Below the pieces are notes generated by a model. It ran no database searches. It was not told the origin of the DNA and was given only the letters and a program-made list of their open reading frames with translations. From contig JASANH010001440.1 of the NCBI GenBank assembly GCA_030248295.1, positions 434,001 through 498,000 on the forward strand: a stretch of 64,000 nt of DNA. Direction: 5' to 3'. The position numbers and the translations under genes were made by a program. The DNA is from Mesodorylaimus sp. YZB2_4. Its lineage: Eukaryota; Nematoda; Enoplea; Dorylaimida; Dorylaimidae. Positions within the stretch are counted from its first letter, which is position 1. Each line of letters starts with the position of its first letter. Positions 29,972-60,989 of this stretch are shown here, one piece after another.

Positions 29972-32900
29972 ATGTCGAAATTTCCGTCCACCAACTGGCC
30001 TTACATTATTTTTATTGGTTTTGCATTATTCGCTTATTCCATCTCACAATCAACTTCAGACAACGAATCGAAGAAATTTTTGAGCCTGACGTCCAAACTA
30101 CCAGATAATAATCATAAAAATTCATCATCTGAAGCAGGAAATGCTACAAATTTCAATCAGATTGCGACTGAAAAAGTCAAATCGTCCGTCCATATTGCTC
30201 TCATAAAATTCGCCCTGGTCGAGAAACCATTCACAATTACCATTTTCATTTTGGTTCTGTGCTGTCTTAAATTAAGTAAGTGACCAATCGACCTGCAATC
30301 TATCTTGCTAGTAATTTCGGTTTTAGCCTTTGAATATTTTCGAAAATTAAACGAAACGATTCCCGAATCCTGGTAAGAAAAATAGCTTTCCTCGACAGCT
30401 TGCTGTTCTGACAAATTTTGTTTAGCATGCTCATGCTTTTTGGAATTGCAATTGGCTTCTTATTTTGGATTCCAGAAGCACAAAAAGTATTGGAATTTCT
30501 AGATTTCAAGCCTACAGTTTTTTTTAACTTCTTGTTGCCACCGTAAGTCTTACGTTTTCAAGCAGTTAAAGTACGAGTACTTGCCTTTGCTACTGTACTA
30601 ATTATAAAGTAGGTTTAGAAACGCCTAACCTAAAAAACCTGTCCTCGGCATGCTTTCGACAAGTTTTCCGGTCCTTTCGCTTGCATAAAGACTGGGAGTC
30701 CATAATCTAAAAAAAATCCCTGGTTAAGAACATTTTCTTCTATTTTCAATGACAGTAATTTTTCTTCTTCTACTTCCTGAATTACACTTTACAGTAATTC
30801 AAATGTTTCTAGTTGCTTGGAAATTGACTACAGAAGATTTTTTCGAGTGGTAGACTAAATTCTGAAACAGCTTTTAGAGTACTTAGCATCTCCTGAATAT
30901 CAGCAACTATACCATCCAGCAATCCTATGAGGTTTCAGTTTCGCCTGTCGCCACCATTCTGTCATAGAAAGATGAGCGAAAAAGGCAAATTTTTAAAAGT
31001 AATCTGCTTTTGGCAAGGATTTTTTCTCAGAGAAGCTACAACTCTAAACATTGTGTGATGCTTAAGCTTTGCCCTTTTTTCAGAATTGTCTTGGAGGCTT
31101 CGTATTCATTTAAGCATCGAGCATTTAATGAAAACCTTAGGTCCATTTTATTATATGCCCTTGTGGTACGTGCTGGTTTACCAGGTGTCATGAATACCAG
31201 CTGCAAGACTTTTTCAGGGCACCGTACTGAACGTGTTGATCATAGGCCCATCCTTGTATGGATGTTACTTACTTGGCTTCATGGGCGCGTACTGGAGAAC
31301 CACATTTTTGGAATGTCTTATGTTTAGCACCGTCATCGCAGCTACTGATCCAGTCGCGGTAATTTCAGTTCATTTCACTGAGTTTAATATTTGCATGATC
31401 TGATCAGTGAATATTTCAGGCTCTCGCAATTTTTCAAAGTATGGGTGTTAACAAAATGTTATATTTTTTAGTATTCGGCGAGTCCCTATTCAACGGTAAT
31501 TTTTCTACCCCCTGGAGAAGTCAGAGGTTTTTAATACAATTTTCAGATGGCATCGCAATAGTCTTCTACAACAGTATTGAAAGTTTCATCCACTTGGACA
31601 ATATTGGCGTGAAAGAAATCGGAATTGGCTTCGCTGCTTTTTTGTGCGTTTGCATTGGTGCTGTTTTGATTGGTGTCCTTGTCGGATTATTCAGCGCTTT
31701 TGTAATTAAGTATTCTTCAACGTCAGAAGGTGAGCAGTGATCTGAACTTTCTTCTTCATTAGTGAGCGCACGCACCTTTTCTTTAGGTTTGGAGCCAATA
31801 TTCATATTTGGGTTCGCTTACCTGTCGTATCTGACAGCGCAGCTATTTGATTTCTCAGCAATGATCAGGTTCGTGTTTGTTTGTTTCGCCCAATCAGAAT
31901 AAAAACGCTTTCTTTTTAGTCTTATTTGTTGTGCACTCTGCCAAGTTCATTACGCCTTCGAAAATGTATCACCAAGGAGCCTTATAACCGTTCAACAGTC
32001 AAGTTATCTAATGAGGTAGAGCACAATATTTGAATTAAACGGCTACATTCCGCGTATATTCAAAAAAGCCTAATTAAGTGATAGTCATTATCACATACCG
32101 CAGATATGTAATTAAAAATTACTGAAGACAGAAATCAAAGAATGTCACGCATTTTTTTGCCTTAGATCAGCCAACCAGAACACTATGCTGATAGACGATT
32201 TTCGCCGGCTAATAACTCGAGAACAGGTGGACAAAAATTTTTGATTTTTCCCACACTTTTCAGAATCGGCCGAATGTACAATCGTGCTGATTTTTATCAA
32301 AATCCGTCCAGCCGTCGTCGAGTTCCAGAATAGGCGATTTCTTGTGCAGGGGGAGAAGCGAGGAGGAGGAGGAGGAGACAACATGTGCCTTGATCAACAA
32401 CCAGAGGTCGGCCAGTTGTAAATTTCAGTTTTTCTAAATGCTGAATCTTCCGTACTCTGCTTTGACGGTCATTTTTTTTTTTAAGCTTCAATTTCCGAAA
32501 AGTTAGTCCTGAAAATAGTCACTGTTTCAGATTTTTCTTATCCGTCCATCGTCAGGTACTGGACAGATTTCGATAAAAATTGACACTTTTGTAGATCTGA
32601 CTTATCTTTCAAAGCTTGCGAAGAATCAACTTTCTTACGCTCAGTCATTCTTGAATTATCGACTATGAAGTTTGTTATGTGTTTCTGTTTTTTATTGTTA
32701 GCGAGGTGCTTAGAAACATCAACTGAACGGGTTAAGTCACGCCGCCATTGCTTGCCTAGGCTCACGATCAGCGGGCTCTCACAAAGTTAGGTTTGGTGTA
32801 CCCAAATAATTTTGCCGATAGAATATGTGAACGAATATGAATAGATGCGCACAGAGTTTCCGTAGACAGGACATGTTTTACTAGATATGGAATAACATTG

Positions 32901-35202
32901 CTGAGAAACATTCGCGCAAATAATAACTGGATAAGATTTGAGGATCTTCAGCGTTCCGTTTTAGCTTCGGAGCGAGTGATTTGCGTCTAGTTAACTTCAG
33001 ACCACACTGAACATGAGGCAGTTCTACTTAGGCGCAGTGGCTTTCCGACAACATCTTTGTTGTGCGACATGAGGCTCTCAGTTCGACTCCTTGACGGGTT
33101 AAAATTTTTGGTTTTTGTTTTTCTTCTTTCCACGGGACAGTGGAACGTTGTTGTTAACAAGGAATATGAGGGTAGCCTTAGAATTTCTTGCGCAATCGGA
33201 TAAGGTGTGGGATATAATAGAGATGCAGAAAAGAGGTATACGGTAATTTTGTTGTTTTTCCTGCCGCCTTTGTGTCGAAGTACCTTTTCGAAAAATGTGT
33301 GCAGTTTATATGTAAGTGCTAGGGTTTTAGTTTTATGTTTTTCTGAAGTTTGGAGGAAGGCGTATGGCAGTCACTCGATTCTCTTAGTCGATCTGCAGGA
33401 ACAAGTGTTTTGGGCCAAACTAGTTTGTAGCAAAAAATGAAAAACGGTCTTACTATTTCCAAAAAAAGTCTGTTATGACAGAATGGCTGGTCCACTCGGC
33501 CGCTGCTAAACGCAGCCACGCTTGTGGAAAAATGCCTGAGCAAAAGCTGCTTTTTCTGCATGAATATCAACAGGACGACTTATTGTGGCAACAAGCAGAG
33601 GACCATGCAATCCTATGCTCGCGGTCTACATAGTGGGCTAGGAGTGTCTACTCTCAGGCTATAGTGGGTAATGTTCAAGCCGCGGCTAGGTAAATCATTT
33701 TGTGTCACGTGTCCCTTTGTAATTGGTATGGACTAGGCATGTACTATGACCTCTGGCCTGTTCGTGCACTGGTTCTGGGACTGGTCCGCCTCTCCTAAGT
33801 CAGGGCCAGCACGTTAGCGAGGTCGAGGGCGAGGGACAGTGGAATACTGTGTCTGGCTAGGATGACTCAAGAATCACTCTTCATATCTTTTTCATACCTT
33901 CTTCCAGCAATATTGCCGAGTCGATAACTTTCGTGATGCTGGCAGCAATGGCTATTGGTATCAAGGATGCGTGGGCGAACTTCGATCCAGGTTTCTCAAT
34001 TTCAGCCGTCCTGTTATGTCTGGTCGTTCGATTTCTAGGTGAGCAACCGGGGGTGAGCAGGGTTGGAAGGAAATCTCACAGTCAGCGGGTGTTGAACGTT
34101 GTGTATTTGGCAGGTTTTCTTGAATTTCTAATCCAGACTTGAACATCGCACAGCACAAACTGTAAGATTCTGAACTTTCCTGAAACATTTGGAAATTCCG
34201 CGAGCATACCGCTAATTTCCCAAAGTGGATAAATTTGTGCTTGTGTATGCGTTAGTGTGAAAAAAATATTAAAAACATGCGATTCTGTTTCAAATTTTCG
34301 CTTACATACGAAGTCCAACACTTACTTCATACTGAGCGGCGTGATGTTAAATAAAGTCTTCAAGAAGTTTTCAAAGTACCCACTGAGTACAGCCCTGACA
34401 CCCGCGGTAATATGTCATCAAACCCGTAGCTGTGCTTGTTTGCGGTCAACTTTATTTTGTCCTATAGTCACCTTCGACACCCAAAACTAAGATTAACCCT
34501 CAGCTTTAAAAACTTTAGTAACCTTCATTTTGACCTTCTTCATCAATCGTTCGTTGAGCGGGTTCCGGCAAATCTGCAGGAGAGACCAGTTCGTATTGGT
34601 GAGCGATTCAAATTTGCCATTGATTTGCCATGCCATGTCTTTTCCATTTTAGGCGTATGGCGGATTACGTGGTCCAATTACATTTTCTTTAGCATTTTCT
34701 TTGCAATCCTCGACGTTGCTGGACAAAGAAAAAACACGGCATATATTTTTAACAGCATCATATACTGTCATATTTTTTACAACTTTTCTACAGGTCAAAT
34801 TTTAGGTTTTTCTGAAACTTTATGTTTTCCGGCTTTATTGAAATTTCATTTCAGGGCATGACCATGAAACCACTAGTCAAGCAACTGCAAATAAAGTTGG
34901 ACCACAGTCATTGTCAGAATTTATTCACTGAAGTTCACTATCAGGTGGCTAATAGCAGTCTTGATTTGCAAACTGAGGTTAAAATTAAATTCCAAATCAT
35001 TTCTTTTTGCTGCCCATATTTGCAGGTCGCGCAACATATTGGAGCAGGTATCGAATGTATAGCCAATTCAAAGGGCGAATTTTACTGGTCGGCAGCTTTG
35101 AAAAATTGCAGTCGCAAAGTCTTGCGACCATTACTCAACAAGCAATGCCAGAGAAAATATGGGAATATGGTGGAGGCACATTCTAAATCGAGCTGTGTAT
35201 AA
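29972..35202 (+). CDS. Na+/H+ exchanger (SLC9/NHE family), 14 exons, 581 aa
   Basis: The product is an electroneutral Na+/H+ antiporter of the plasma or organelle membrane. Exons: 29972-30275, 30327-30372, 30426-30542, 31084-31165, 31218-31358, 31420-31495, 31547-31729, 31787-31868, 31920-32015, 33908-34038, 34519-34598, 34653-34793, 34855-34944, 35026-35202. They sum to 1,746 nt with all phases closing. Signatures in order are SVHIALIKFALVEKPF, IPESC, FFNFLLPP-IVLEASYSFKHR (amiloride-sensitive TM4), AATDPVA, FGESLFN-DGIAIV (the ion-binding ND formed across intron 6), SNIAESITFVMLAAMAI, RDQFVL-AYGGLRGPITFSLAFSL and GMTMKPLV. The N-terminus is hydrophobic and NxS/T-rich. The cytoplasmic tail is short (family members are often 650-850 aa), ending soon after the membrane-proximal regulatory segment. 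Most introns are 51-61 nt; intron 9 (1.9 kb) hosts tRNA-like repeats. Confidence 0.95.
33028..33095 (+). other. tRNA-like sequence in exchanger intron 9
   Basis: An A-box-like GGCGCAGTGGC (33,031-33,041), an ACAAC...GTTGT stem and a B-box-like AGTTCGACTCC occur with tRNA spacing. The T-stem does not pair, so this is a SINE head or relic rather than a tRNA. Confidence 0.35.
33453..33664. repeat. Dispersed retroposon copy (related to 40,131-40,407)
   Basis: Most of the sequence, including TATTTCCAAAAAA-GTCTG and the GCATGAATATCAACAGGACG block, matches the copy at 40,131-40,407. This copy lacks about 55 bp containing the B-box-like segment. It lies in intron 9 of exchanger gene 1. Confidence 0.8.
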
Positions 35203-37171
35203 AGCTTGTAATCAGTATTAGCACCTTTTTTTATTATATGACTGACTGGTAAGGATTAAAATGAAAGAGCAGCGCAGCACTGATGATTTGTGTTTTTCGA
35301 GAATGTAAGAGGTATGAACCAACACTCAGGTCTCGGCGACTAATAAGGTTTTATATTTCCCACGGGAGTCGCTGAAGCGCTCTCTGCCACCTTCACCCTT
35401 CCATTCGTCGAACACGAAAACGAACGGACGAAACGTGCTCGCGATAGGCGACAACTTGTCTAAATTTCCCCGCGCAAGAATGGGACAACAGGTTCATCAT
35501 AAAAAAGACTACTGTACTGTAGCGTAGCGCAGTTTTCAAATTCCCGGAAACTGTGGTTGTCTTTTCGTTAGGTACTTCGTGTTGAGAAGTTTGGGAATAT
35601 TTCAGTGGCGCTTGTTCATTGCTCGAAATCCCTGTAAGACGAGCAGCCACCAGTCCTGAAAGAAGTCCACAAACGTAAGAAGACATTGAATGCAAGAAAC
35701 AAGAGCTCAAGCGGAAATCGAGCAAGCAACGCCGAGTGCTACCTGTCTAGGGTGCACCTTTTTATTTCTAAAAAAATCTGTTATCAGACAACAACAAAGT
35801 TAGCCTAGCAACTCTACTTCAACGAAATGAAGGGCGAGACTAGGTTGGCTGGGCTCCCTCGGCGACGCATGCTTGGATGCATTACACTTTTGTCAAAACG
35901 ATTCGTAAGGTCATGGGGTCGATTTCCTGTCGGATTTCTGTTTTACACCAAAGGCGTACCGGGTAATGTTCAAGCCGGCTAGGTAAATTATTTTGTGTCA
36001 TGTGTCCCTTTATCCTCGAGCTTGTCATTAGTGATGTTATAAACCATGAGCATGAACATAAAGCAGGAAGAAGGGAAGGAAAGATTGTTGAAAGTGTGTC
36101 AACGATAAGCTATATCACCTTACTCGCAGCTTTAGCAATACAGTATGCAGGACGCTCGTGTGGAACAGCATAGTTACTTTTGGGGAGCCTGTCTGAACAG
36201 CAGCAGTGAACAGCAGAGAAGCATGTTGGATTTAAAAATTCTGCCATCGGCAAGCATCTGTGTGCGAGTGATTATACACCGTGCAGTGCAGGCCCCTCTC
36301 TTTTCCTTGTGGCCGAGTAGACCAGCCATCCTAAGCCCGCCATCCTAACCAAGTGCGCACAGTAAGTGCGAGCGGCACCGAATAAACGAAGCTAGTGCGA
36401 TGCGACAGGACTCGGAGTTGCACTGGCAGGCTTCCAGCACATCAGGCATGCAGGTATGTACGCACGTGTGCACCGTAGTAGATATACGGAGTATGCGCAA
36501 AGAATACTCTGTTGTTCCTACGTACTTTACCGTGTGCACACGTTTTAATATGATTAGTACCCTGCACCCAAGCCACGAACTGAGCAGCGGTAAGCATAGC
36601 ATACTCGCAGTGTTAAAATTACCTGTCAAATTTTTCTTGAAAATTTTCGTGTATTTTTATGTGCACAGCGAACTGGTGCGCACATAACTGTTGGGAGGCT
36701 CCAGTCTTAATTTGCCACAAGGCGACAAGGTTAGGCGCAAATATTATTACTTTCAAATTTTTCTTTTCATCACCAAATAGATACGCCGCTGTATCTGATC
36801 TTTTCAGGGTAGGATAATTAATTGAATCGTCAATGTCGATTTACAACTTGATCGTGGTGCAGAGCTTTTCTCTGTTTATTTCAGAATCGTATCCAGCAGG
36901 GCATTTTGTGAAAAGGAAGCCCGTCCTGATTTTCATCATAAAGTACAAACTCTTTTCAATGTGCGCACATTCGATAAGTGCATGCGCCTCAAAGGCAGAC
37001 GTTCTAACGGAAAAATTGAATCATCTTGAACAAAAGCATATAGCGTTCCTGCGGCCGAGGTAAGTCGCCTGTTGATCTGGACACGAGCAAGTACGCCAGC
37101 TACTTTGTGAAACAGAGACTACAATAGTTTACAATATAGCATGATTTAGGACACTACTTGAACGCTAACAA
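35203..37171. other. Intergenic with repeats; candidate upstream exon of the channel gene
   Basis: Contains a repeat at 35,765-36,010 related to 18,672-18,790 and, at its end, to 33,667-33,720. A tRNA-like A-box block (TGGCCGAGTAGACCAGCC) lies at 36,312-36,330. A stretch at 36,884-37,062, bounded by TTTCAG and GAG/GTAAGTCG, could be an upstream exon of the DEG/ENaC gene, but its phase does not join cleanly. Confidence 0.45.
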
Positions 37172-39174
37172 TTGGACGGCTACAATGAGTTGGGCAAGGC
37201 CACTAGCCGAAAAGAAAAGTTTCTTTGGATAATTGTCATCCTGTTGGGCTATGTTATCTCACTTTTGTTATCTCTTTTAACTATCCAACGTTACAACATA
37301 GGAAAGGTGATCGTGAGCAGGCAAACGATAGCGCATACAAGACTCGACGACGTTTTTCCAGTGGTAACTCTCACCCACGCTCCAGCCTGGAACAAGACAT
37401 ATATCGAAGCAAACATTCAAATACCCGATTATCTTCTGGAAAAGGCATCCCACTTGAACATGACCAAATCGCAACTATTGCTTGCATTTTCGAGATACAT
37501 TAGCTATTACAATCCAGTTTTCGATGATCCCATCAAATCGAATGTTTGGCGAATTTTAACCGATTTATTAAATCATAATTTTCAAGAAAACATACATTTT
37601 TTTGACTTTTGGTGGAGTCTTTATCCAAGGTGGGACAAATATTCAAAAACTGTTCACTGTCCGGCATGCCACATTCTTGCTGGCCATTGCCAATCGTCTT
37701 GGACTCGCGATCCTGCTACATTATACCAGTAAATCTAGAAGCGGCGCCCTAAGAGTCACATGACCTTTTGCTCAAGTGGACTATCAGCTCTTAAAAATTA
37801 TGATACCCATGTGACAGTTTTGAAAAAAGACGAGCATAATCTGGGCGATGTCTGGTGTCATCCAGGAAAGGGGCAAGGGGTCTCTTTCGATATACATAGG
37901 TCAAAAAACTGGGTCGTCGCGTACACCCAGGGTTGATAATTAAAATTTAACTGGGATCAGAATAATCAAAATATTCTCCAGAATTTGAGCACCATACTCA
38001 AGAAATGTAGTCCTTATGCGGGATTTACTGTGAGCCCCTAAAAAAATAAACAGCGAGCGTAGAAAATTGTATCAGAGTCTGCTTTTTGTCTCGCATTTGC
38101 AGTTAAATAACACTTGATGTCATCAGCCCCAATTCGAACTGTAATCGACGTTGTATTTTCAGAAATTTTTTAAAGATAAATAATCTAGTCAAGATAATTA
38201 CTTTGCTTGGGGCTCTCAGACTACCAGGAACCGTGGATGAGATTTGAAGTCATCGTGCCACTAAATGACACCTTCTATGAAACAAGTATCGCTGACCAGG
38301 CAGATATTGGAGCAAAAATCATTAATGGAGGAGCACCAAGCATGTTTTCGATGCAGCAGTTCATTCCAGTCAAAACCCACGCATTGATCAGTTTTCATCA
38401 AATAACCACCACTCTGATAAACGACTGCCATACATCTGTGACAGCTCCGAAGCTGACCAAGTACGAGTACTACTCAAAGGAAACCTGCCCGCTCGATGAA
38501 ATAGAGGACCTAATGCTAAATATCTGTAATTGTCGCATGGTTGGTGGAGAGCAATACCCAAATAATCACGACTCCTGCACCGCAGACATCGTCAAGAACT
38601 GTGTACAGCCTATTATTGATCAACAGTTTTTACGAGACGTAAAATGTCATTTTGTGGTACTGCGAAATTCTCCCTACAATGTTTTTTTGTATTTCAGGTA
38701 TTTAAATATAAGTGTCCGCCCCGCTGTGAGTACATGGCAATGCCATCCACAGTCACATTCTACGACTTGGAACACAACGACGATTACCTGAGAACCATTA
38801 TCACAATCCGCGCTGATCGAGAGAAGCGATTTGTTTATGACGAAATGAATTTGACGAGTATTTATCAAGCCTTTTATGATGTAGGAGGGCTGGTCGGAGT
38901 CTACACTGGCCTTTCAATCGCCGCTCTAGCTCACGCCCTCGCCTTGCTCACTGGACTGTGGTAAGATGGCTCGAAGCCCTGCTTGGTGGCGTGCTTCTAT
39001 CAACTGACTTCCCATTTTAGCTTGAAGACAACGAGCCATAAGATAGTCAAGCCTGCGATAGCCGCCAAAAGCACGACGATATTACCATTTGCGGCACCGT
39101 CCAGCAGCCGGGATAATCGCCAGATGAGTCAGAAAATATGTTTTGTGAAACGCCAAGTTCGGGTATCCCCTTGA
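37172..39174 (+). CDS. DEG/ENaC-family sodium channel subunit (5' half unresolved)
   Basis: An amiloride-type cation channel subunit with two membrane spans and a large extracellular domain. The first recognisable exon (about 37,172-37,728) has a DGYNELGKATS segment where family members have an HG gating motif, then TM1 (WIIVILLGYVISLLLSLL) and FPVVTLTHAP, the equivalent of FPAVTxCN. Later exons are firm: 38,220-38,638 with CPLDEIEDLMLNICNCR, 38,698-38,960 with CPPRCEYMAMPSTVTF and TM2 (YDVGGLVGVYTGLSIAALA), and 39,021-39,174 with a basic tail. A segment near 37,765-37,936 may be an additional exon, since its donor phase fits 38,220. No ATG or clean acceptor opens the TM1 exon, so either the model is incomplete or the 5' end is damaged. 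A polyadenylation-like AATAAA lies at 39,447. Confidence 0.8.
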
Positions 39175-41092: not shown

Positions 41093-41238
41093 GTAGTTGT
41101 GATGGTTTTGGCACAGGCCGTGTTATTGTACATCTGTACATATAAGGCAGTTCCTCAAGCAACTTACAAGACATCTAGCCAAGTTCTCTAGATTTTGCTG
41201 CGGATGCAAAATTTTGTTTTTTTAAAAGGACAGAAGTT

Positions 41239-44200
41239 ATGCCGAAACTTTTTTTCACCTACTGGGTTTGTATTATTATTGTTGGTTTCGCATTATTTGC
41301 ATGTACTTTCTCAGCTTCAGACAACGATTCAAGAAATTTTTTGAATCTAACGTCCAAAAAACCAGATAATCATGAAAATTTCTCATCTGAAGCAGGGAAA
41401 AATGTTAATGCAAGTAGAAACAAAAAAGTCAAATCGTCCGTCCATATTGTGCTCATAAGATTCGCCCTAGTCGAGAAACCATTCATAGTAACCATTTTTA
41501 TTCTGGTTCTGTGCTGTCTAAAATTAGGTAAATGCCAAATGGCCTGCGTTTTTCTTTTTCTTTCCAATAGAATTTTGGTTTTAAGCGTTTGAACATTTTC
41601 GGAAATTGAACAAAGAAGTTCCTGAATCTTGGTAAGAAAAAGAGCTTATTTTTGAAGCTTACTGTACTGATCAATTTTGTTTAGCATGCTTATGCTTTTT
41701 GGAATTATAATCGGATTCTTCTTTTGGATTCGAGAAGCACGCGAAGTCCTGAAATTCCTGGATTTTAAGCCCGGCGTATTTTTCAATTTCTTGTTGCCAC
41801 CGTAAGTTTTCTTTTAGTCAAAGCTTTTTACCCAAAGTAAATGTCGAAATTATCAGTGGAAATCATGAATGGCAACTCTTTTTTGTTTGATTTTTGCACA
41901 AAAAGGCCACTTCTGGTAAAGTTAATTTAAACTGTTCCATGAGAACCTGCTAGAGTTTCGCACGTAGAATGCTCATTCAGTACTTGTAGTTTCTAGGGGA
42001 TTTGTCTCGCACAGCTTATTTTTTGTCATAAGCCATTCGGCGGGAAACTGCACTTGTAAAGTGAATCACTTCAGGGCCCCATACTGAATGTGTTGATCAT
42101 AGGTCCATCCTTGTATGGATGGTATTTACTTGGCTTCATGGGCGCGCAACGATGCGAGCAAACATTTGTTCACTAAAGCTGCAGCTCTTCGAAATATTTT
42201 ATCTATATAGCTCTTCTTTTCAGAATCGTTTTGGAGGCCGCATACTCATTCAAACATCGAGCATTTAATGAAAACCTCGGGTCCATTTTATTATATGCCC
42301 TTGTGGTACGCGCTGGTTTACCATGTGTCACAGATACAAGTAGCAAGACTTTTTCAGGGCACTGTACTGAATGTGTTGATCATAGGCCCATCCTTGTATG
42401 GGTGCTACTTACTTGGCTTCATGGGCGCGTCCTGGAGAACCACATTTTTGGAATGTCTGATGTTTAGTACTGTCATCGCCGCTACTGATCCAGTTGCGGT
42501 AATTTCATTCTCTATTTCGTTTCGTCCTGCATAATGTCTTAAGTTATAATTTTAGGCTCTTGCAATTTTTCAAAGTATGGGTGTTAACAAACTGTTATAT
42601 TTTCTAGTATTCGGCGAGTCCCTTCTTAACGGTACATTTTTCTTCGTCCAACAAAAGTTTGAATTGTCGAAATGCCTTTTTCAGATGGCATCGCAATCGT
42701 CCTTCACAACACGATCAAGAGTTTCCTCCTTTTGGACCTAATTGGTGTGAAGGAAATCGGAATTGGATTTGCGGCTTTCTTATGCGTCCTTATTGGTGGT
42801 ATTCTGATTGGTGTTCTTTTTGGAGTGTTTAGTGCTTTTATCACGAAATATTCCTCATCGTCTGAAGGTGAGCAGCGATCTTTTCTCTTGAACTTCCCTT
42901 TTTAAAGGAAACGTATGAAATCTCTTCTTTAGGTTTGCAGCCTTTTTTCATATTTGGATTCGCTTACCTGTCATATCTGACAGCGCAGTTATTCGATTTC
43001 TCGCCATTGATCAGGTCTTCATCACTTTTAACCTGCACCTACAATGTAAAAACGAAAGCTTTCTTTTTAGTCTCATTTGTTGTGCACTCTGCCAAATTCA
43101 TTACGCCTTCGAAAATGTATCACAAAGGAGCCTTATAACCGTTCAACAGTCAAGCTATCTAATGAGGTAAGCACGCCGCATTCAACGTCTTAATCAAATT
43201 ACTTTCACCCAAAAAAACCTCACAATCATAACTTAATTGACTAAACATCCCATTTTTTGCCGCTCCAATTATATTATTCAGCTGATATGTTCCCAGCTGA
43301 TTTGGCCAAGTAGCTGAGAAATTCGTGTTTCAAGTATGTGAGCTAACCAGGTTTTTTCCCCGTCAACCCTGCATCACCTCTAACTCTAACCTTTCATAAT
43401 TCCACCACTAGGTACACTATATGTAGGTTATGCGGTGATCTTTATTACCTGAATGAAACAATGGGAATTTTATGTCTGGTTGGGGAGTGTGGGGAAATGT
43501 GGGAGGACTCTTTTTTAATAATGCTTATATTCATACATTTTCTGTAGCAACATTGCCGAATCGATTACTTTCGCGATGCTGGCAGCAATGGCTGTTGGTA
43601 TGAAGGATACATGGTCATACTTCGATCCCGCATTCGCAATGTCTGCAGTATTATTATGTCTGATTGTTAGATTTGTAGGTAAGCTACGTAGTTGTCCTCG
43701 CTTTACTGTAAGCATTGCATTTGACAAATGTAACTAGTTTGTAATTGCTCTTGGAAAAAAACTTGAAAAACTTTTTAGTGACCTTTACTCTGACTTACTT
43801 CATTAACTGTTCGTTTTGAGCGGATTTCGAAAAATCTGCACGAGGGATCAGTTCATATTAGTAAGCGTTTAAAATTTGTTACTGTCAATCCTTATACTGT
43901 GTGTTTAAGGCGTATGGGGGATTACGTGGTCCGATAACATTTTCACTAGCTTTTTCTTTGCAATCCTCGACATTGCTCGACAAAGAAAAAACACAGCATA
44001 TATTTTTAACGGCTGCATATACTGTCATATTTTTCACAAGTTTCCTTCAGGTGAAATTTCAAATTTTTTCCCTTCAGGAATTCTCGCTTACAATATTGTT
44101 GCAGGGCATGACTATGAAGCCGCTAGTCGAGCACCTGCAAATAAAGTTGGACCACAATTGCTCCGAAAATTTATTCGCGGAGGTCCAGTACCAGGTGGCT

Positions 44201-44450
44201 ACTTTTGTTTTTATTTTGCAGAAAAGTTCTGTCATGTTTTCAAACTACGTTTGCATTCCGCCTATATTTGCAGGTCGTACAACATATTGGAGCTGGTATC
44301 GAATGTATAGCTAATTCAAAGGGTGAGTTTTACTGGTCTGCAGCTTTGAAGAATTGGAGTCGCAAAGTCTTACGACCATTACTCAACAAGCAGTGCCAGA
44401 GGAAATATGGGAATATGGTGGAAGCACATTCTAAATCGAGCTGTGTATAA
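41239..44450 (+). pseudogene. Second Na+/H+ exchanger, 14 exons, frameshift in exon 11
   Basis: A tandem paralog of the gene at 29,972 with identical exon structure. Exons: 41239-41527, 41586-41631, 41685-41801, 42224-42305, 42358-42498, 42556-42631, 42685-42867, 42933-43014, 43071-43166, 43548-43678, 43779-43860, 43910-44050, 44105-44194, 44274-44450. Twelve exons have exactly the same length as in gene 1. Exon 1 is 15 nt shorter in frame. Exon 11 is 82 instead of 80 nt because a T-run is two bases longer (43,814-43,817), giving an immediate TGA after NCSF; the frame after the run is otherwise intact. LLPP-IVLEAAYSFKH, AATDPVA, GESLLN-DGIAIV and YGGLRGPITFS are all kept. Either this is a young pseudogene or the run is an assembly error, in which case the protein would be about 576 aa. 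Confidence 0.9.
42075..42146 (+). pseudogene. Duplicated fragment of exon 5 inside intron 3
   Basis: 72 bp matching the start of exchanger exon 5, including a preceding TTCAG acceptor, lies in intron 3 of gene 2, upstream of exon 4. Similarity ends abruptly at GGCGCG and no donor follows, so it is a dead partial exon copy that could act as a decoy splice acceptor. Confidence 0.85.
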
Positions 44451-45519: not shown

Positions 45520-46232
45520 TCATATCCCAGGCCTGCATTCGGCCACGGCTTTATCCACACTGTTCGTCTTGCAGTACACTTGCATCAGTGTGAGGAGTGT
45601 GCAGCGGGGTTGTCTGCACACGCGATACGCGCTTGGACAAGGCTGCGCTGGTGTGCAACGCTCGCCTGGTGGTCCGAAGTGGCCGCTTCTCATGTATCTG
45701 CACACATTGTTATCTGAAGTGGTGAGCAGATAGCATGAATTCGTTGACGTGACCGTTGCAAAATAGCAGTCAGAATCGCGACTGCATTCGCGTATACACT
45801 GATCGATGTTGCGCACCCAGCCTCGATTCTGGTAGTAATTTGGGCGAATAGCACCAGCCGTCCATGTGTGATAGTACCACGGGTCTTGACCAGTGCCACA
45901 ACGGGCGCTCACTACACAACAATCTTAGGATGTAGGGCAACTTGATAAATCGATGTCGAGTTCTTACCTTGACCATTGTCGTAATAGAAAATCCGGTCCG
46001 CCAAATTATCTCCACCTCGACCCCAACCCCGATCGCGATCGCGATATCGATCTCGATCCCAGCCCCGGCCTCCGCCCCAATTATTTCTTCCACGTTCCCA
46101 ATCCTTTCTTCCTCCATCCCAATCATGTCTGTCCCTCTCCCTGCTATTGCTATCCCACCACTGGGCATTGGAGCACCAAAAGAGCACATGGAAAATTACA
46201 AACGCCACTAGAAGATTCATATTCGCCGACAT
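45520..46232 (-). CDS. Secreted PAN-like 12-cysteine protein with W/R/D-rich spacer, 218 aa
   Basis: The exons are 45,968-46,232 and 45,520-45,911 (minus strand), joined in phase 1 by a 56-nt intron. The start is the ATG at 46,232, giving signal peptide LLVAFVIFHVLFWCSNA. About 60 residues of low-complexity W, R, D and G (RDRYRDRDRGWGRGG) follow. Exon 2 encodes RCGTGQDPWYY, then twelve cysteines including ECSRDSDCYFATVTSTNSCY, which resembles the core of PAN/Apple modules that bind protein or carbohydrate. The paralog at 49,912 shares domain order, intron position and all twelve cysteines. A TATATA-like CATATATG lies about 45 nt upstream of the start. The function is inferred only as extracellular binding or matrix. 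Confidence 0.85.
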
Positions 46233-47185
46233 TTTCAATCCAGTTCAAAGACACTGGCATTAGATCAGGCAATCCTTTTACATATATGCCCTTTTGTTAT
46301 AATTCTACGGAGAGCACCTTTCGCACGCAGTGTTTATCCTAAGCGCCAAGAGAAATCCTAAGATCGAAAGGGAAACTGGAAACCCTTGTTGCTGAAGTCA
46401 AGTGCCGCCTTCTGTTTTAGAACTACATTTATGTCAAATTGCTGCTACAACTAGCGTGTTGACAATTTTTACTGTGCAGGTGACTGCGCGAAGCGAAACA
46501 ACAGATTTCTATAAATATCTTGGAGACCAGCCGAGTAGGAGTAAGATCTAAACACAACGTGTGACGCATTGCTGCTGGACACGCACTACAATGACGCCCA
46601 CCTAAACTTATCGTCGTAACCGCTGGTCATTACCTGACCCGAAAAAATATTACCCGAAGTTATTACCCGTCATCACCCGAAAGTGATGCCACATGAGTTG
46701 TCGGATGGCCGTTGGCCAGCAATTTTGCGCTCATCCTTGCGGTTCGTCGCTTCGTAGACTTTTATTCGTAGATTTTCACGATTTCAGAAACTTTTATTTC
46801 AAAATTCGCGATTTCACGATTTCAAAATTCGAATATGTACTTCGTATGTAATGCACGTTCTGTGTCTTTGTTGACAAATATGGTGCTTGTTGGAAAGAAA
46901 TATCAGGTCCAAAATAGTTTGCAACTTCAAAATTTATCTCTGGATACATCGGCATGACCACCGCCCAGTAACATTGGTGTATGTCAATGTAACCGACTGG
47001 CTACTTTGACATAGGCGTTTGCACATGTCAAACTATCCCGGCTACTTTGACATGGCGGTTACTTTGGCATGTGACACTGGCCAGCAGTCATGATATGATG
47101 CGAGGCCGTGAGGTGACCAGATCTAATGGCAGCTTCCCTGTGTGTGTGTGTGTGTGTCTTCACTAGGAGTCTAAGAAGGGGCTCA
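46233..47185. other. Intergenic with TG microsatellite
   Basis: A (TG)9 tract lies at 47,139-47,157. Short repeated ATTTCACGATTTC units lie near 46,780-46,830. No gene is supported. Confidence 0.5.
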
Positions 47186-47458: not shown

Positions 47459-49911
47459 AGACCGATCACGTGACGATATGACACTTCTATTAGCCTACTG
47501 GAGCTTGACCTGGATTTTTTATTAGCATTTATTATTATCTGACCCAACCCTCCTTCTGATAACCTGATGGATGACCAGTGGTCGAGTGCTCTAAAACGCA
47601 TGCAAAAAAGAAGAGGGATGTGAAGTCAATTGCGTGTACTCTCGCATGTTATCGGGGGGGGGGGGGGGGGGGGTTCTCATAACGGAATCGGCGTTCGTTC
47701 GTTGAAGTCAAGTCAAGTGTAGGTTTTTTGGTCCAAGTAAGATTTTATTCATCTGCGCCAAGTAGCCCCCCGTCAGTAGATCTAGGCAAGTAACCGGTTT
47801 GGAAAAAAATATAGCTCAGCCGTTTTCAAAGCCAAAAATTTCAGCCATTGTTGGATTCGAATCCTCGGTAGCCGGATCGATGGAGTGTTGCATCGAACGG
47901 CGCTGCACAGCCGAGACCCTAGAAATCGCTGAAAGAACAGTGGTTTCATACTCGCATCAATTGCCTGCTTTTCTCCGCACCTTAGTAGTTGTACACAATC
48001 TGCCGTATGCTAGGAACACTATGTAAATCTTGACCGCGCTGCACCGGCATGCTTCAAATCCAAGTCAGCGCTTGCCCTCCGCGAAGGAAAAACAAATAAA
48101 TACCGGAGCAAAGAGCGCAGAAACTAGAAACCAACTGAGCCACCGCGGCTCCCTGTTTATTCACCATGATTGCTAAGTTGGAAATTTGTGTAAAAGGGGG
48201 TCACCAAAGCAGCTAGGCAGGGATTTTGGCACCCCAAAGGTTATTGCTATGAGCCTTGAAGATACCGTTTCAAAACGGAGACGAATAAGAGATGAAGGCG
48301 AATAAGAGTACTGAGCAACGCTTACAATCCTCACAACTGAACAAAGTTGAAGGCCAGAGTTGGTTCATTTGATGTTAGGGGATGGCTCCTGGGGAGGGAT
48401 GACACGTCTCTTTTTGAGATGTTGAGTTGGTGTTGGGTTGTGTGTTGACGTGTTTTCTTTGTTATTTTGTATTTGTAGCCTGTACATACTCCTTGCAAGT
48501 GGTCAGCATTTGGGGCATAGAAAAAAAGGTGAAGAATTCAAAGATGACGCTGACACACTGCCGCCCCATCTAATTCCCAGCGTGGGCCAGTGGGTATTGC
48601 TTCTTTTTGCAAGAAAAGCACTTATTGAAACACTATGAACGCTCACTACAGTTCTAAGGTGTTTGTGAGATAGGTGCAGCTAGAGCTATCGACTCCTAAA
48701 GTTACACCAAGGAACTAACCCTTGCATGCACAACTTTCTGACAGGAATAGCATCCTTTATGCGCGGCATTCTTACACCATTGAAGCACATATGCAGAACT
48801 CGCTCACACGCGCTGAGGAGAGCGACAGTATCTTTTAAACCATACTTGCCAGTGTGTGCATTGCGCGGCCAAACAGTTTTTGCCTGTACAATAATGACAT
48901 GACTTTTTGAAAAAAAAATGTTTTAATGTATGGGTGTAAGCTGGCTTCAGGAAAAGCGGGCAGGGGACAAAAGTGCAATCTAGCGGACATATCTTTAGGC
49001 CGCAATCAAATTTAGTCGCGCTGTGATTGACTTGAAAAAGTCAAACAGACAGAAACAGTTAGAGACAAACAATATACCAATTCACAGTTTTCGGCAGCTG
49101 ACATTTTTAAATTCCCCGCAGACGTCGTATAGGACACATGCCATGTTATCCCTTTTCCTCATTTCATTGCCCATCAAGACGAGCGCACACACAGGACAAC
49201 GAGATCATATTTATAAACGGTCGCAAAGACGAGTAGGGGCGTGCCTTTTTAAATTCTTCAGAATCTGAAAGTCTGTCGTAAATAAAACTTGGATAAATGA
49301 ATACAACATTTTTTGTACAGCAGAAACAACATTTTGGGAAGATTTAGAACCAGTCAGGCTCTTATTATACAACGCATTTTCTTTTCCCGGACTTTTGGAA
49401 TAACTTGGTAGAATCAACATAGATTCTTGCGAAGATTGCATTCGCCAGAGGCAAAAAGTATGACTTGGTTGTTTGCTACTTTACCACCTCCCCCGGACAC
49501 GAGACCACAGCTGAAGAGGTATGCGCGGGAGAATGGTCGTGCCAGGTTTGCATTCATCTTTCACATTTACCAGACAATTTTCTTCAAGCCCGCCCCGCCT
49601 CAATGTCCCAAGAATAAACAGACCTTTGAAATGTGCTGAAAGACGATTTTTGGCACACTGATCAGCATAACGCATTGTAAAAATTCTAGATCTCGCACCT
49701 TACGTATCGCTAATGCACAAGTATTTCTGCAAAATTCTTTAAAATTCGAACATCCGGCACCGCCTATTATTGCACAATGGCGTCTACCCACTGGTTCCCA
49801 CTGCTCATTGTGCCCACGCCCCCTCAATTTCGAGTGAATAAAGTCGGGTCTCTGACAGTTCTGCCATTCGCACTATCCCACCTCAACGTGCCAACGTTCG
49901 CATATTTTGTC
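47459..49911. other. Intergenic with G20 tract; promoter side of the second PAN-like gene
   Basis: G20 lies at 47,654-47,673. Possible tRNA-like A/B-box pairs near 47,812-47,863 are too weak to call. An open frame at 48,438-48,638 has a hydrophobic start but no ATG. Confidence 0.5.
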
Positions 49912-50885
49912 ATGAAATACCAAATTTTCTTTCTCGCCGTGTTTCTTTGCGTGGCCAGTGGGCAATGGGGGAATAGTTGGGATCGAAACCAAAACAGTAG
50001 AAATGACTGGGATCGAAACAATAATTGGGATAGGAACAACAGAAATAATTGGGATAATAATCGCAACAATAATTGGAACAATGATCGAGACAGAAACAAT
50101 AGGAATCGCAACGACTGGGATCAAAATGGGAAAAGTGGTGGCTCAAGGAGGTGGAAGAACTCATTCGTGAATAAAATTTTTGATGAACGTGGCGATGAAG
50201 GTATCTGTAGGCATGATCGGGATCACCTATCTGACTGCAATTTAGGAGGAGTGTTTTTAATGGAGAAGAGAGTACAGAAAGAAGAACTAGTGCGATAGAG
50301 TGAATTCCATACACTGCAAGGCCGCTTTGTTTAAAGTACTTGGGGACTTTTCCCCTCAAATGGCCTGCTCCCACGAAAAACCTTTCCCGCCCTTTGAAAC
50401 ATCTAAAATAAATTTCACTGGTCTATTCCTTCAGTATTGACCCTTTTACCCATCAGTGAGCTGAAAGCATACAGTATCTTCTCATTTCAGTAACGGCTCG
50501 TTGTGGTACTGGCCAGGAGGACTGGTATTATTACACATGGACGACCGGTGGTATTCGAGATTACTATTACAGTCAAGGATACAAACGGAACTTGGACGAG
50601 TGTGTTCGTGTTTGCGATCGCCTGCCCGAGTGTTATTTCGCGACTCTAGCAACCGAAACAAATACCTGCTATTTGCTGAAAGCCAGCACTGCCACCAGCT
50701 GCAGATATTTGAGAAGCGGTCATTATGGGCCCATGCGCGAAAGGTGCACGCCATCGAGACCATGCCCTAGTGCGTACAGAGAGTGCAAACGCCCGCATTG
50801 TACTCTCATAACAATCATGGAACGGTACTGCAAGACGAATGGAGATGAGGACGCGGCTGTGGAAACCTGCAGACAAAGTGCATAG
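49912..50885 (+). CDS. Secreted PAN-like 12-cysteine protein with N/W/D-rich spacer, 227 aa
   Basis: Exons are 49,912-50,200 and 50,491-50,885, with a 290-nt phase-1 intron at the same position as in the paralog at 45,520. The signal peptide is IFFLAVFLCVASG. The spacer is asparagine-rich (NNRNNWDNNRNN) rather than arginine-rich. The domain opens RCGTGQEDWYYYTWT and keeps all twelve cysteines (ECYFATLATETNTCYL, GERC-type and RPC, REC, HC, YC, TC positions), ending CRQSA. The pair is head-to-head with 3.7 kb between start codons. Rapid spacer change with strict cysteine conservation suggests a structural or adhesive secreted role. Confidence 0.87.
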
Positions 50886-55300: not shown

Positions 55301-56717
55301 TCTCCTGTTCCTGGTGATCTATTGCCTTCGTCGAAGTTCAGCAAATTTTTCCCTTGATGCCGCTGAGTGTGATCTCTAGCTCCTTCCTCAGCAGCCATTC
55401 TTGCTTGGCAACTATTCTTGTCTTGCTAATGGTTGCTAATCTTCTTCTTTCATTTGCATAGATCCCTGCCGAAAATATTATCTGACCAGTTTCCAGCGAT
55501 CTTCATGTAGCACCAGGTCTTAATGAGTCACCAACCGGCCACGTCATACAGTAACACATGACCTGATTTACTTAGAAGATCGATGATGGGAAGGTTGATT
55601 TATGTAGCAAAAGGAAAGGATCGCGGAAAAGGATCAGTTTTGCTAAGGTTCGAAAACCTTAAACTAGTGGGTTCATGACAGTGTCCTCCAACCCTCATAT
55701 GTTGATGACCTGCCAGAGCTACTTTCACAGCAATTGTACATTTTCTTTCATTGGGAGATTCGACATCATGATGTTATGTTCAGCCTTTGAGAATTACTAA
55801 TACGAGAGCAATTTTTTAACATCTTATACGCTGTAACTTTTCCTAGAGTGTTCATCTTAGTTACACAAAGCATACACTTGTATATCAAAATCGTGAAGAA
55901 ATGATTCGTTCGTCCCGAAGCTTCTTTACCATACTACTCGAGCTGAAGAGATCGCCGCCCATGCACTGTAGGCATGAGATTTTAACAACTGTAAAATAAA
56001 TTCATTGCGCATTCCCTCAAAATGGGGCTGGTTGCGTGATTAGTGAGAAATTGTGAAATTCAACGATTCTATCGACACATTTTTTTGGTCACTGCGACAA
56101 TTTGAAAATCAATAATTTTTAAGAGGCGAGACACCGTCCAGAAATCAGCTGTCGTCTTCTGGGCAGTCACAGCTTGGTTTTACGAATACACAGTACTTTT
56201 ACAGCCTTTCGAATGCTTAATCAACCATGACCCTAAAAATTTTAATTTGCTATCTGAGGATCTTATTTTCTTCCCCAGTGGCCTGATACCCTGATAATAA
56301 TAACTTCTTTCCGAAAAATGGGTACCCCGGAAATAGGCTTTTAGATAACTCCGCCTAACCCTGAATTCTTGTCAAGCAATCATGTCCTCTCTTACTAGAA
56401 GACGTCGGAGATGAATCTTTAGCAAGCAAGCCGGCATGAATAGTTCTCTCGCTATGTGCACACCTATGTATGTATTCATATTAGGTCGTCCTTTAAAGCT
56501 CCGTGCCGATTATGGTATACACCCACGATCCGCGTATCGTAGCTATCTAGGTATAATCGTCAATCTGTACCCAAGGAGCGGCATTCCTTTTAACTTTCTT
56601 ATTTAAGTTCATTTGAAAGGGATCCACCTCCATTCATTTTCGTCATATGCTGTGAGCAGTAGACCAGGTGTCTTTACAGTCAGAAAAGTTTGTTTGTCGA
56701 ATCTGATTATAAGCAGT
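52311..56717. other. Gene-poor stretch; possible minus-strand exons unconfirmed
   Basis: Minus-strand open segments bounded by fair splice signals occur at about 52,900-53,060, but they lie 5' of the SPATA6-like start and no coherent protein emerges. Three copies of TACGATTATCCAT lie at 55,227, 55,246 and 55,269. No RNA gene is recognised. Confidence 0.4.
55227..55284. repeat. Three near-tandem TACGATTATCCAT(R)CG units
   Basis: Units start at 55,227, 55,246 and 55,269 (spacing 19 and 23). Purpose unknown; they could be binding-site repeats or a transposon end. Confidence 0.7.
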
Positions 56718-56724
56718 ATATATG
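56718..56724 (+). promoter_or_regulatory. TATA-like box of the PQ-repeat gene
   Basis: TATATAT lies 40 nt before the start codon at 56,764. Transcription would then begin only a few bases before the ATG. Confidence 0.45.
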
Positions 56725-56763: not shown

Positions 56764-59700
56764 ATGAAGGCTCTCATATTTTTTATTATTACTGTTTCAG
56801 CATCGCACGTGGTTCAGGCTTTATCTGAAAGTAAGTAAGCCTTCATTATTTGGCTGATTAAAATCACATTGCTCCAGCCACTGTAATACGATACACTGTG
56901 TGAATTAAATATGTCTTCTGCCTTCTAGCATGCGAAGATGCCCATCCAATTTGCAAAACTATTTGTGCCATAAACTGTAAGGGTGAATCTGTGGGCTTTG
57001 CACTAACAAAAAGGCAAGTGCAAAGGCCCCGTCAAGCCGCAGTCTTTCCGAACGCCGCGAGGGACAACAATCACTGTCCTGATTTAGCAGAGCCAGCTTA
57101 TACTCTCTTGAGTTCCTTTTGTCCAAAGTCGTGCGGACTATGTGGAAAGCGTAAGGACGACATTTAAAAAAATAGTAAATCCCTACATGATTGCGATAAA
57201 TTTCAGAATACGATCTTGATTTGGCAGCTATCGCTTATGTAAGAGCCAGCTGTCCAGTGCGCGGGAATAAGCCACCGCCGAAGCCAGCAGCCAACAAGCC
57301 GAAACCAAGTCAATCAAATCCCCCACCAATCAAACCACAGGCGAAACCACGACCACCGTCACCCGCTAGAACGACACCTCGCCCTAATGAAACTAAACCG
57401 CGAGCTCCAATGCCTGATCAGCCACCACGGCCTAGTGAAGTAGAGCCATGGCGAGAGCCAGAGCCAGCAATTCCAGGTAATGACCGCCAATAACCCCACG
57501 AAAAACAATTCCAGTCCACATAACCCGCTGCAGAGACAAACCTGTCGCTTCCACCATAGCGAAGAACTCTATACTTTAACCTCCACTTTTAAAAAACTAA
57601 AGCGTCGAGCACCTTTCCAACCAGTTAGATCACAAAAAAATTTCAACACCAAACACTTCTAGATTGAGCTCCATTCTGTCCCCAAAACTCAATTTAGCCC
57701 CCACCAGCCTCATTTCCAACCTCAGCAACCATTCGGGAACTACCAACATCTGTTTTTCCTGTTCAGCCTTAAGATCTGAAAAGCCCAACTCTTGTTGTGC
57801 TACAACCACCCTAACTAAACAGAGCATCTTTTACAACCACATACACTGTTTACAGCTCCGCAACTTCCACCTCAAGTTCCACAGCCTGTTCCATTCCCTC
57901 CTCAACAACCTCAACAGCCCCAGCAACCATTTGAGCCAGTTCCTTTCCCACCACAACAACCTCAGCAACCATTCGAACCAGTTCCATTCCCACCACAACA
58001 GCCTCAGCAACCTCAGCAACCATTCGAACCAGTTCCATTTCCACCACAACAACCTCAACAACCGTTCGAGCCAGTCCCATTCCCACCACAACAACCTCAG
58101 CAACCATTCGAACCACTTCCATTCCCACCACAACAGCCTCAGCAACCTCAGCAACCATTCGAACCAGTTCCATTTCCACCACAACAACCTCAACAACCGT
58201 TCGAACCAGTTCCTTTCTCACCACAACAACCTCAACAACCGTTCGAACCAGTCCCATTCCCACCACAACAGCCTCAGCAACCTCAGCAACCAATTGAACC
58301 AGTTCCATTTCCACAACAACAACCTCAGCAACCATTTGAACCAGTTCCATTCCCACCACAACAACCTCAGCAACCATTTGAACCAGTTCCATTCCCACCA
58401 CAACAACCTCAACAACCTTTCGAACCAGTTCCATTCCCACCACAACAACCTCAACAACCATTCGAACCAGTTCCATTCCCACCACCACAACAACCTCAAC
58501 AACCATTCGAACCAGTTCCATTTCCACCACAGCAGCCTCAACAACCACTCGAACCAGTTCCATTCCCACCACAACAGCCTCAGCAACCTCAGCAACCATT
58601 CGAACCAGTTCCATTTCCACCACAACAACCTCAACAACCGATCGAACCAGTTCCTTTCTCACCACAACAACCTCAACAACCGTTCGAACCAGTTCCTTTC
58701 TCACCACAACAGCCTCAGCAACCTCAGCAACCAATTGAACCAGTTCCATTTCCACAACAACAACCTCAGCAACCATTTGAACCAGTTCCATTCCCACCAC
58801 AACAACCTCAGCAACCATTTGAACCAGTTCCATTCCCACCACAACAACCTCAACAACCTTTCGAACCAGTTCCATTCCCACCACAACAACCTCAACAACC
58901 ATTCGAACCAGTTCCATTCCCACCACCACAACAACCTCAACAACCATTCGAACCAGTTCCATTTCCACCACAGCAGCCTCAACAACCACTCGAACCAGTT
59001 CCATTCCCACCACAACAACCTCAGCAACCATTCGAACCAGTTCCATTCCCACCGCAGCACCCACAGCCACCTCAAGTACCAAATGGACCAACAATTGTCG
59101 TTCTGCCACCACCTCAACAGCCACCCCAACCGTTCGAGCCAGTTCAATTCCTACCACAACAACCTCAACAACCATCTGAACCAGTTCCATTCCCACCACA
59201 ACAACCTCAGCAACCATTCGAACCAATTCCATTCCCACCACAACAACCTCAACAACCGTTCGAACAACTCCCATTCCCACCACAACAGCCTCAGCAACCT
59301 CAGCAACCATTTGAACCAGTTCCATTTCCACCACAACAACCTCATCAACCGTTCGAACCAGTTCCATTCCCACCACAACAGCCTCAGCAGGCTCAACAAC
59401 CATTCGAGCCAGTTCCATTCCCACCACAACAGCCTCAGCAACCTCAGCAACCATTTGAACCAGTTCCATTTCCACCACAACAACCTCAACAACCGTTCGA
59501 ACCAGCTCCATTCCCACCACAACAGCCTCAGCAACCTCAGCAACCATTTGAACCAGTTCCATTTCCACCACAACAACCTCAGCAACCATTCGAACCAGTT
59601 CCATTCCCACCACAACAAACTCAGCAACCATTTGAACCAGTTCCATTCCCACCACAACAACCTCAACAACCTTTCGAACCAGTTCCATTCCCACCACAAC

Positions 59701-60989
59701 AACCTCAACAACCGTTCGAACCAGTTCCATTCCCACCACAACAACCTCAACAACCTTTCGAGCCAATTTCATTCCCACCACAACAACCTCAACAACCGTT
59801 CGAACCAGTTCCATTCCCACCACAACAACCTCAACAACCTTTCGAGCCAATTCCATTCCCACCACAACAACCTCAACAACCGTTCGAACCAGTTCCATTC
59901 CCACCACAACAACCTCAACAACCTTTCGAGCCAGTTCCATTCCCACCACAACAACCTCAACAACCGTTCGAACCAGTTCCATTCCCACCACAACAACCTC
60001 AACAACCATTCGAACCAGTACCATTCCCACCGCAGCACCCACAGCTACCTCAAGTACCAAATGGACCAACAATTGTCGTTCTACCACCACCTCAACAGCC
60101 ACACCAGCCATTCGAGCCAGTTCCATTCCTGCCACAACAGCCCCAACAACCACTAGAACCAGTTCCATTCCCACCACAACAACCTCAACAACCGTTCGAA
60201 CCAGTTCCATTCCCACCACAACAACCTCAACAACCGTTCCTACCAGTTCCATTTCCACCACAACAACCTCAACAACCGTTCGAACCAGTTCCATTCCCAC
60301 CACAACAGCCTCAGCAGCCTCAACACCCGTTCGAACCAGTTCCATTTCCACCACAGCAGCCTCAACAACCGTTCGAACCAGTGCCTGTTCCTGCACCCCA
60401 GCCAGAGCAACAGTTTCCCCAGCCTCCAGTTCAACCTGAACATCCACCTCAACCGCAGCCTCCTATTGCTCCTCAATCGCCTGTTCCTGGACCGAATCCG
60501 CCAATCGCGCCCCAGACTAATCCAAGGCCCCCGCAGGGTAATCTATCTCCTATACATCGCATCGATCGATAAAATGAATAGTGCAGATCATTTGTTTACA
60601 GGCAACTGTGAAGATCAGCATCCGTTATGTCCATCACTTTGCAAATTGCCCTGCGCTGAAAAATCTATTGGACTGGCTGTGAAAAAACGATCATTGTTCG
60701 GCCTGTTCCGAGGAGTCAAGGCTCAACCTGTGAGGAACAGAAAAGTCCAACCGCCTCGTTTGAATCCTAAAGCTCAATGCGCGGATTACGCTAGCGCCGC
60801 TTTTGAATTGGTTCTCTTCGCCTGCCCTAAGTCTTGTGGAGCTTGCGCAGAGGGTGAGTTCTAAGTAATACACAAATCTTCTATGAGCATTCGAATTCCT
60901 GCGTTTCTGTTCTAGTGATCAACCCAACTGATGTCGCTCGTCAATATTCCGCTCAATATTGCAAAGCTAAGCCGAAACTCGTTGGATGA
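56764..60989 (+). CDS. Secreted giant: two ShKT-like domains flanking ~50 Pro/Gln repeats, 1,188 aa
   Basis: Exons: 56764-56830, 56929-57150, 57207-57476, 57856-60537, 60602-60853, 60916-60989. They total 3,567 nt, every junction is phase 1 and they close on the stop. Residues 1-20 are a signal peptide (ALIFFIITVSA core). Residues about 24-97 form a cysteine domain CEDAHPICKTICAINC...CPDLAEP...CPKSCGLC plus a C-terminal Cys; residues about 1080-1188 repeat it as CEDQHPLCPSLCKLPC...CADYAS...CPKSCGAC plus Cys. The CPKSCG.C end resembles ShKT modules. Between them lies a P/K/R-rich linker and about 54 units of PFEPVPFPPQQPQQ (14 aa, some 17 aa), ending in PAPQPEQ and PQPPIAPQ variants. The repeat recalls cereal gliadins by convergence and would be disordered and glutamine-rich. 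A secreted structural or cross-linked matrix protein is inferred. Confidence 0.9.
57930..60400 (+). repeat. 42-bp coding minisatellite with higher-order structure
   Basis: About 54 units of 42 bp (occasionally 51 bp) fill exon 4. A block of seven units near 58,291-58,585 is repeated at 58,732-59,020 (offset 441 bp). A non-canonical spacer block reading PNGPTIVVLPPPQQP occurs near 59,080 and 60,060, 979 bp apart. Near 59,730-60,000 two unit types alternate as an 84-bp dimer. Confidence 0.95.

Follow-up and report, generated by a model that had tools for sequence, protein, structure and literature searches.

Our analysis of a 64,000-nucleotide stretch of the Mesodorylaimus sp. YZB2_4 genome (contig JASANH010001440.1, positions 434,001 to 498,000; hereafter the window) leads us to propose that a six-exon gene near its end, referred to here as the array gene, encodes a secreted extracellular-matrix or surface-coat protein whose cysteine-rich ends would link one chain to the next by disulfides and so build a network, with a glutamine- and proline-rich region as the spacer between them. 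Judged from the sequence, we consider this reading somewhat better than an even bet. The gene belongs to a small family whose members share their ends but not their middle, and which probably serves to build an extracellular coat. A first-pass annotation of the same DNA had proposed an extracellular structural role, and the secreted-type leader, the paired homologous cysteine ends and the single reading frame make such a role plausible. The predicted exons, in window coordinates, are:

56764..56830, + strand, exon 1: hydrophobic leader MKALIFFIITVSASHVVQALSE, judged by eye
56929..57150, + strand, exon 2: N-terminal eight-cysteine ShK-like domain (CEDAHPIC...CPKSCGLC)
57207..57476, + strand, exon 3: tail with the ninth cysteine (AAIAYVRASC), then a basic Pro/Lys linker of 74 residues, net charge +8
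57856..60537, + strand, exon 4: Gln/Pro array of 894 residues, 53-54 units of FEPVPFPPQQPQQP and variants
60602..60853, + strand, exon 5: C-terminal eight-cysteine ShK-like domain (CEDQHPLC...CPKSCGAC)
60916..60989, + strand, exon 6: C-terminal tail with the ninth cysteine and the stop

Joined as predicted from the sequence, these exons comprise 3,567 nucleotides and give a conceptual translation of 1,188 residues whose sole stop is terminal. All five introns are GT-AG and all five lie in phase 1, so that the earlier model of six exons closing in phase 1 holds in its coordinates, length and domain boundaries and in a single frame. The signal peptide it described is present as a secreted-type hydrophobic leader. 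The two cysteine domains it placed at opposite ends are indeed homologous: both start with CED.HP.C and finish with CPKSCG.C, and a whole-genome search with the N end finds the C end at an expectation value (E) of 4.2e-8 with 40% identity. The protein contains 18 cysteines, nine at each end and none in the array.

Evidence that the array is coding comes from the way its units differ from one another. In the 53 units found with a protein pattern, there are 168 mismatches with the consensus unit, 18/19/131 at codon positions 1, 2 and 3, and the codons with a single difference comprise 117 synonymous and 27 non-synonymous changes (possible changes, 28 and 98, respectively). A protein pattern favors conserved residues and the frame test was therefore redone without that bias. 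At the eight codons left unspecified by the pattern, mismatches are distributed 5/14/90 (90 of 109 at the third position), and units picked by DNA similarity alone give 20/20/138 (138 of 178), with 54 of 54 sharing the frame of the gene. When each distinct column variant is counted once the excess is weaker, at 9/13/19, because synonymous variants have spread by duplication, which accounts for part of the third-position excess. A stop-free reading alone would be weak proof of coding, since one other forward frame has only one stop within the array. Together the third-position bias and the shared frame of the units lead us to reject the ideas that the array is non-coding or read in another frame, the latter being an alternative that the first-pass annotation had itself raised.

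The consensus unit is 14 residues long and is accompanied by 17-residue and rarer variants, including a 34-residue variant containing VPNGPTIVVLPPP that is found twice. The original estimate of about 54 repeats is borne out by three methods, which count 53 units (protein pattern), 54 (similarity to the consensus DNA unit) and 55.8 copies (Tandem Repeats Finder). Its description as an almost pure P/Q/F/E/V array likewise stands: these five residues account for 842 of the 893 complete codons in exon 4. The segment is 41% Pro, 29% Gln and 11% Phe, lacks Cys, Tyr and Lys, and contains only 10 Ser and Thr among its 894 residues; 128 of its 257 glutamines lie in a Q-x-P context. Its net charge is -54, compared with +8 for the linker, +7 for exon 5 and +3 for exon 6. 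Wheat gliadins and involucrin also consist of Gln/Pro repeats with Q-x-P sites and resemble the array, a likeness of composition without shown homology; a 73-residue composite piece of the array matched no Pfam family at E up to 1. In the 145-Mb assembly of 1,067 contigs that we searched, to which all contig labels below (C3, C28, C214 and so on) refer, all 16 matches to the 14-residue unit (E ≤ 0.001) fall inside the array gene, and the unit thus cannot be traced between loci. The array also carries an exact direct repeat of 316 nucleotides:

58261..58576, + strand: 316-nucleotide exact direct repeat, copy 1
58702..59017, + strand: 316-nucleotide exact direct repeat, copy 2

This repeat shows what appears to be a recent internal duplication, with an assembly error at the same place a possibility.

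Each end of the protein consists of an eight-cysteine exon and a tail exon holding the ninth cysteine. The eight cysteines are spaced C-x6-C-x3-C-x3-C-loop-C-x14-C-x3-C-x2-C, the loop being 32 residues long at the N end and 41 at the C end. Six of these cysteines, the first two and the last four, fit the ShK family (PF01549), as does the CPKSCG.C finish. The norm in that family, however, is a compact stretch of six cysteines within about 37 residues, whereas the eight cysteines here span 71 and 80 residues, two extra cysteines and the loop split the domain, and the ninth cysteine lies in a separate exon. The N end scores 20.5 bits and the C end 7.9 or no match (Pfam cut-off, 20.9). The 73 matches of the ShK model in the genome, obtained with 150 of 167 candidates scored, include neither end. 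With E allowed to reach 10, a Pfam scan of the ends returned ShK only, with no spidroin N- or C-terminal domain, and sequence matches to solved structures in the PDB numbered 0. Aligned by hhalign with 13 ShK domains drawn from eight loci in this genome, the ends reach a probability of 92.7% over the last 14 columns only (0.1% for an Fn1_2 control), with the loop omitted from 6 of the 10 modules in the profile. The sub-cut-off scores, the absence from the 73 matches and the restriction of the profile match to 14 columns lead us to reject ordinary ShKT domains. The paired ShKT-like ends of the first-pass annotation thus survive as a homologous, ShK-like pair and not as ShKT domains proper; the profile comparison it had suggested left the N end close to the cut-off and both ends below it. 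We regard these predicted modules as ShK-like, split nine-cysteine relatives of ShK rather than as members of that family.

The ends recur elsewhere in the genome. Under permissive thresholds the N end retrieved 25 matches (E up to 10), the C end 17 (E up to 10), an N half 12 (E up to 1) and a C half 14 (E up to 5), counts that include the array gene itself and the inverted duplicate pairs on C86 and C107. Combined with a cysteine-pattern scan, they identify members on C214, C28 (three), C33 (four), C86, C107 (C half only) and C6. Thirteen C halves were scanned by script for phase-1 tail exons: seven gave a correct cysteine-bearing tail, one a spurious tail and five none, the last group including the N end of the array gene, whose tail continues into the linker without a stop. 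The inverted pairs, at C86:162.2k and 167.4k and at C107:357.2k and 359.1k, have equal match scores within each pair and could reflect genuine inverted duplication or an artefact of the assembly. A locus at C111:25.9k resembles a distant N half, its loop being rich in Trp, Gln and Pro, and C469 did not match the pattern. The member at C28:92.8k starts about 0.9 kb away from a cuticle-collagen domain (C28:91811-91936, - strand).

What lies between the ends differs from member to member. The C214 member has, on one strand and in order, a leader, Fn1_2 domains (a piece joined by eye scores E 4e-19), a P/Q/E/A array, an eight-cysteine domain and a tail. Its array spans 4,044 residues within 4,170 stop-free codons (the two other frames contain 48 and 249 stops), and the codon-position test gave a mixed result, with mismatches of 122/9/349 at one anchor and 113/66/130 at another, both anchors having been picked by protein pattern. 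In two members on C28, pieces of Fn1_2 lie upstream in the same orientation, with best E values of 1.4e-9 and 1.8e-7, over the cut-off, and two further pieces score below it. These two members have a Thr/Pro-rich or Ser/Thr/Pro core, one of them with a Gly/Ser/Trp insert in the loop, and the paralogue at C28 99k has a Thr-rich core. That the C214 and C28 exon sets are single genes we infer from order and strand. Between their halves, the short members (two on C33 and the one of the C86 pair inspected) carry nothing more than a basic or Pro-rich stretch. Across the predicted family, conservation extends to the ends but not to the cores, and the array therefore looks like a replaceable spacer between disulfide ends.

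A promoter-like sequence precedes the start codon:

56717..56723, + strand: TATA-box-like sequence starting 47 nucleotides before the ATG, a putative promoter element

The motif TATAWAW occurs within 150 nucleotides upstream of the ATG in 4 of the 7 family genes with a located start, and in 3.7% of 5,000 random 150-nucleotide pieces of the window. Its presence hints at strong, regulated expression.

How does this architecture compare with known nematode proteins? The comparisons that follow draw on portions of the cited papers. The closest known layout is that of the Toxocara mucins (PMC3611597, PMC9477421). In T. canis, MUC-1 to MUC-5 (TES-120) have a low-complexity core, variable between members, with ShKT domains at one end or at both; this core is Ser/Thr-rich and O-glycosylated, and the proteins are 176-316 residues long with two or four ShKT domains (PMC3611597). 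Like the array gene and its paralogues, these are secreted nematode proteins with cysteine-domain ends around a variable low-complexity core, and the array-gene layout thus has precedent. They differ from the array gene in their core, which here is Gln/Pro/Phe-rich and so poor in Ser and Thr that we reject a mucin core for the array, and in their ends, which here are single nine-cysteine ShK-like modules. Among the low-complexity proteins of the C. elegans pharyngeal cuticle (APPG, IDPA-C), Cys/Pro/Gln-rich ones peak at cuticle building (PMC9629831), and epicuticlins are tandem-repeat matrix proteins (PMC11529277, PMC9612446) with repeats of 49-71 residues bearing GYR and YGD motifs, none having been detected in clades I and II according to the section of PMC9612446 used here. 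Both groups resemble the array-gene protein as secreted, disordered, low-complexity or tandem-repeat matrix proteins; unlike it, they go without mention of paired ShK-like ends in the portions of these reports used here. Neither GYR nor YGD is present in the array-gene protein, and its 14-residue unit lacks Tyr. The cysteine-cradle proteins of the apical extracellular matrix (SPIA-1, DPY-6; PF23626) similarly combine a disordered region with a conserved cysteine domain (PMC11925461), although that domain, as described there, has four invariant cysteines and is C-terminal only, and Pfam gave just ShK for the ends described here. The occurrence of all these proteins in nematode coats supports a coat or matrix reading of the array gene. 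What sets the array gene apart from them is the split nine-cysteine module, a core resembling gluten and the range of cores that a single genome contains.

We envision a scenario in which the array-gene protein is secreted and each end then folds into an ShK-like core with one extra disulfide, using eight cysteines. The ninth cysteine of each tail would stay free and bond another chain, and chains joined in this way at their ends would assemble into a network held by disulfides. The Gln/Pro array would serve as a long, extended and flexible spacer, with its phenylalanines as sticky points and with linker and array oppositely charged; later hardening by transglutaminase cross-linking is possible. 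Several points weigh against this scenario. The disulfide pairing and the free ninth cysteine are guesses, and the tail script required a cysteine, so that it shows that such tails exist and not that the ninth cysteine is conserved. One C86 paralogue has an in-frame stop between its halves, and members of the family need not all be intact. The genome assembly may have altered the length of the array. Finally, a soluble secreted or signaling role would fit the sequence equally well, and MUL-1, a C. elegans ShKT protein, has been proposed, in the part of that report considered here, to act in redox responses (PMC13273113).

The alternatives overlap with the network model and with one another, and our confidences in them are not meant to sum to one. 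The array-gene protein could be a soluble surface-coat or gland product like the Toxocara TES mucins, with ends that bind proteins, a core that is a mere spacer and no polymer at all. The shared layout of cysteine ends around diverse cores is what recommends this idea, which we nonetheless think unlikely: with so little Ser and Thr a mucin O-glycan brush is not expected, and the ends are single nine-cysteine modules rather than tandem six-cysteine ShKT domains. Somewhat less probable still is that the end modules are precursors, in which a cut at the KR following [VI]G[FL]A[LV]x would release peptides or make two-chain modules. In one end KR comes after VGFALT, in the other after IGLAVK, and it is invariant in the four sequences compared, an EPVGFAL-like motif precedes KR in most N halves seen, and 5 of the 7 correctly spliced tails stop at a similar motif without KR. 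Yet the dibasic pair may belong to a basic loop, the member at C28 103k has RR, and the C6 member lacks such a site in the stretch seen. We give very little credence to the idea that the array is a non-coding satellite joined to unrelated exons and decaying or read by chance. The young 316-nucleotide repeat does attest to turnover of the array, but the codon-position bias, the conserved frame, the phase-1 junctions that match on both sides and the homologous ends that flank the array all speak for a coding exon.

A further alternative emphasizes a different chemistry. The array could be a gluten-like transglutaminase substrate in which Q-x-P glutamines are cross-linked to lysines of the ends and linker, yielding a coat like the cornified envelope. 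The genome has Transglut_N matches at two places, L055 (C3:737291-737503 and flanks) and L054 (C4:310030-310461), both containing internal stops as expected with interrupting introns. About 1 kb beyond the C3 match, on the same strand, lies an exon reading KYGQCWVF, within which a piece of 35 residues matches transglutaminases of solved structure (E 6.6e-6 for the best). C3 also bears two cuticle-collagen domains and is thus not an obvious contaminant. To our knowledge C. elegans lacks such a transglutaminase. With a transglutaminase-like gene that has an active-site motif and half of the array glutamines in Q-x-P, cross-linking of the array is possible. Against a substrate role, the array lacks Lys and would find donors only at the ends, the Transglut_core model found neither L055 nor L054 in the genome search, and Pfam reported no family for the longer C3 catalytic exon. 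Moreover, Q-x-P is the motif preferred by mammalian TG2, which need not hold for this enzyme. On balance we doubt the substrate model about as much as the soluble-product one. A separate Transglut_core match on C8 was rejected as a transglutaminase; it is a peptide N-glycanase with PAW and Rad4 domains.

The surroundings of the gene offer some context. The assembly has 133 matches to the cuticle-collagen N-terminal domain (Col_cuticle_N), as befits a nematode-like genome, and canonical spliced leader 1 was not found in it within one mismatch, which points away from a typical rhabditid. At L062 (C10:225001-228560) lies another very long array, of EQPTQPEQPAQP units and ending in GCCCKDNVALFRQLNTILENHLKIN..., with two frames meeting inside it and no Pfam family over the cut-off. 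Within the window the following were seen:

45520-46244, - strand, and 49910-50885, + strand: related secreted-type proteins with Trp/Arg/Asp/Asn-rich stretches, the first with a PAN- or MANEC-like cysteine domain below cut-off
37169-38964, + strand: amiloride-sensitive channel (DEG/ENaC) exons, first piece at E 3.4e-5, just below cut-off
29945-35202 and 41179-44314, + strand: two copies resembling a sodium/hydrogen exchanger gene, by eye; of the second copy, one scanned piece has a weak match (E 0.0055) and the other none
45-1553, 3960-5060 and 15318-17470, - strand: element like a long interspersed nuclear element in two nearly identical copies, with endonuclease-like and reverse-transcriptase-like frames, all by eye

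Combining these ideas, one can imagine a nematode lineage that retained an animal-type transglutaminase and evolved a gluten-like polymer, in which nine-cysteine ends, each cut at KR into two disulfide-bonded chains, lock the proteins together end to end and the enzyme cross-links fast-changing Gln/Pro cores, giving a coat like the cornified envelope that arose independently of vertebrates; we regard this as a long shot. Nematode coats are usually accounted for by disulfide and tyrosine links, and if the transglutaminase of this genome acts on the array, glutamine cross-linking would enter the picture. More broadly, the predicted disulfide ends, conserved in the family and joined to low-complexity middles specific to each member, would offer a ready set of comparisons for finding out which tasks a matrix-protein core has to perform.

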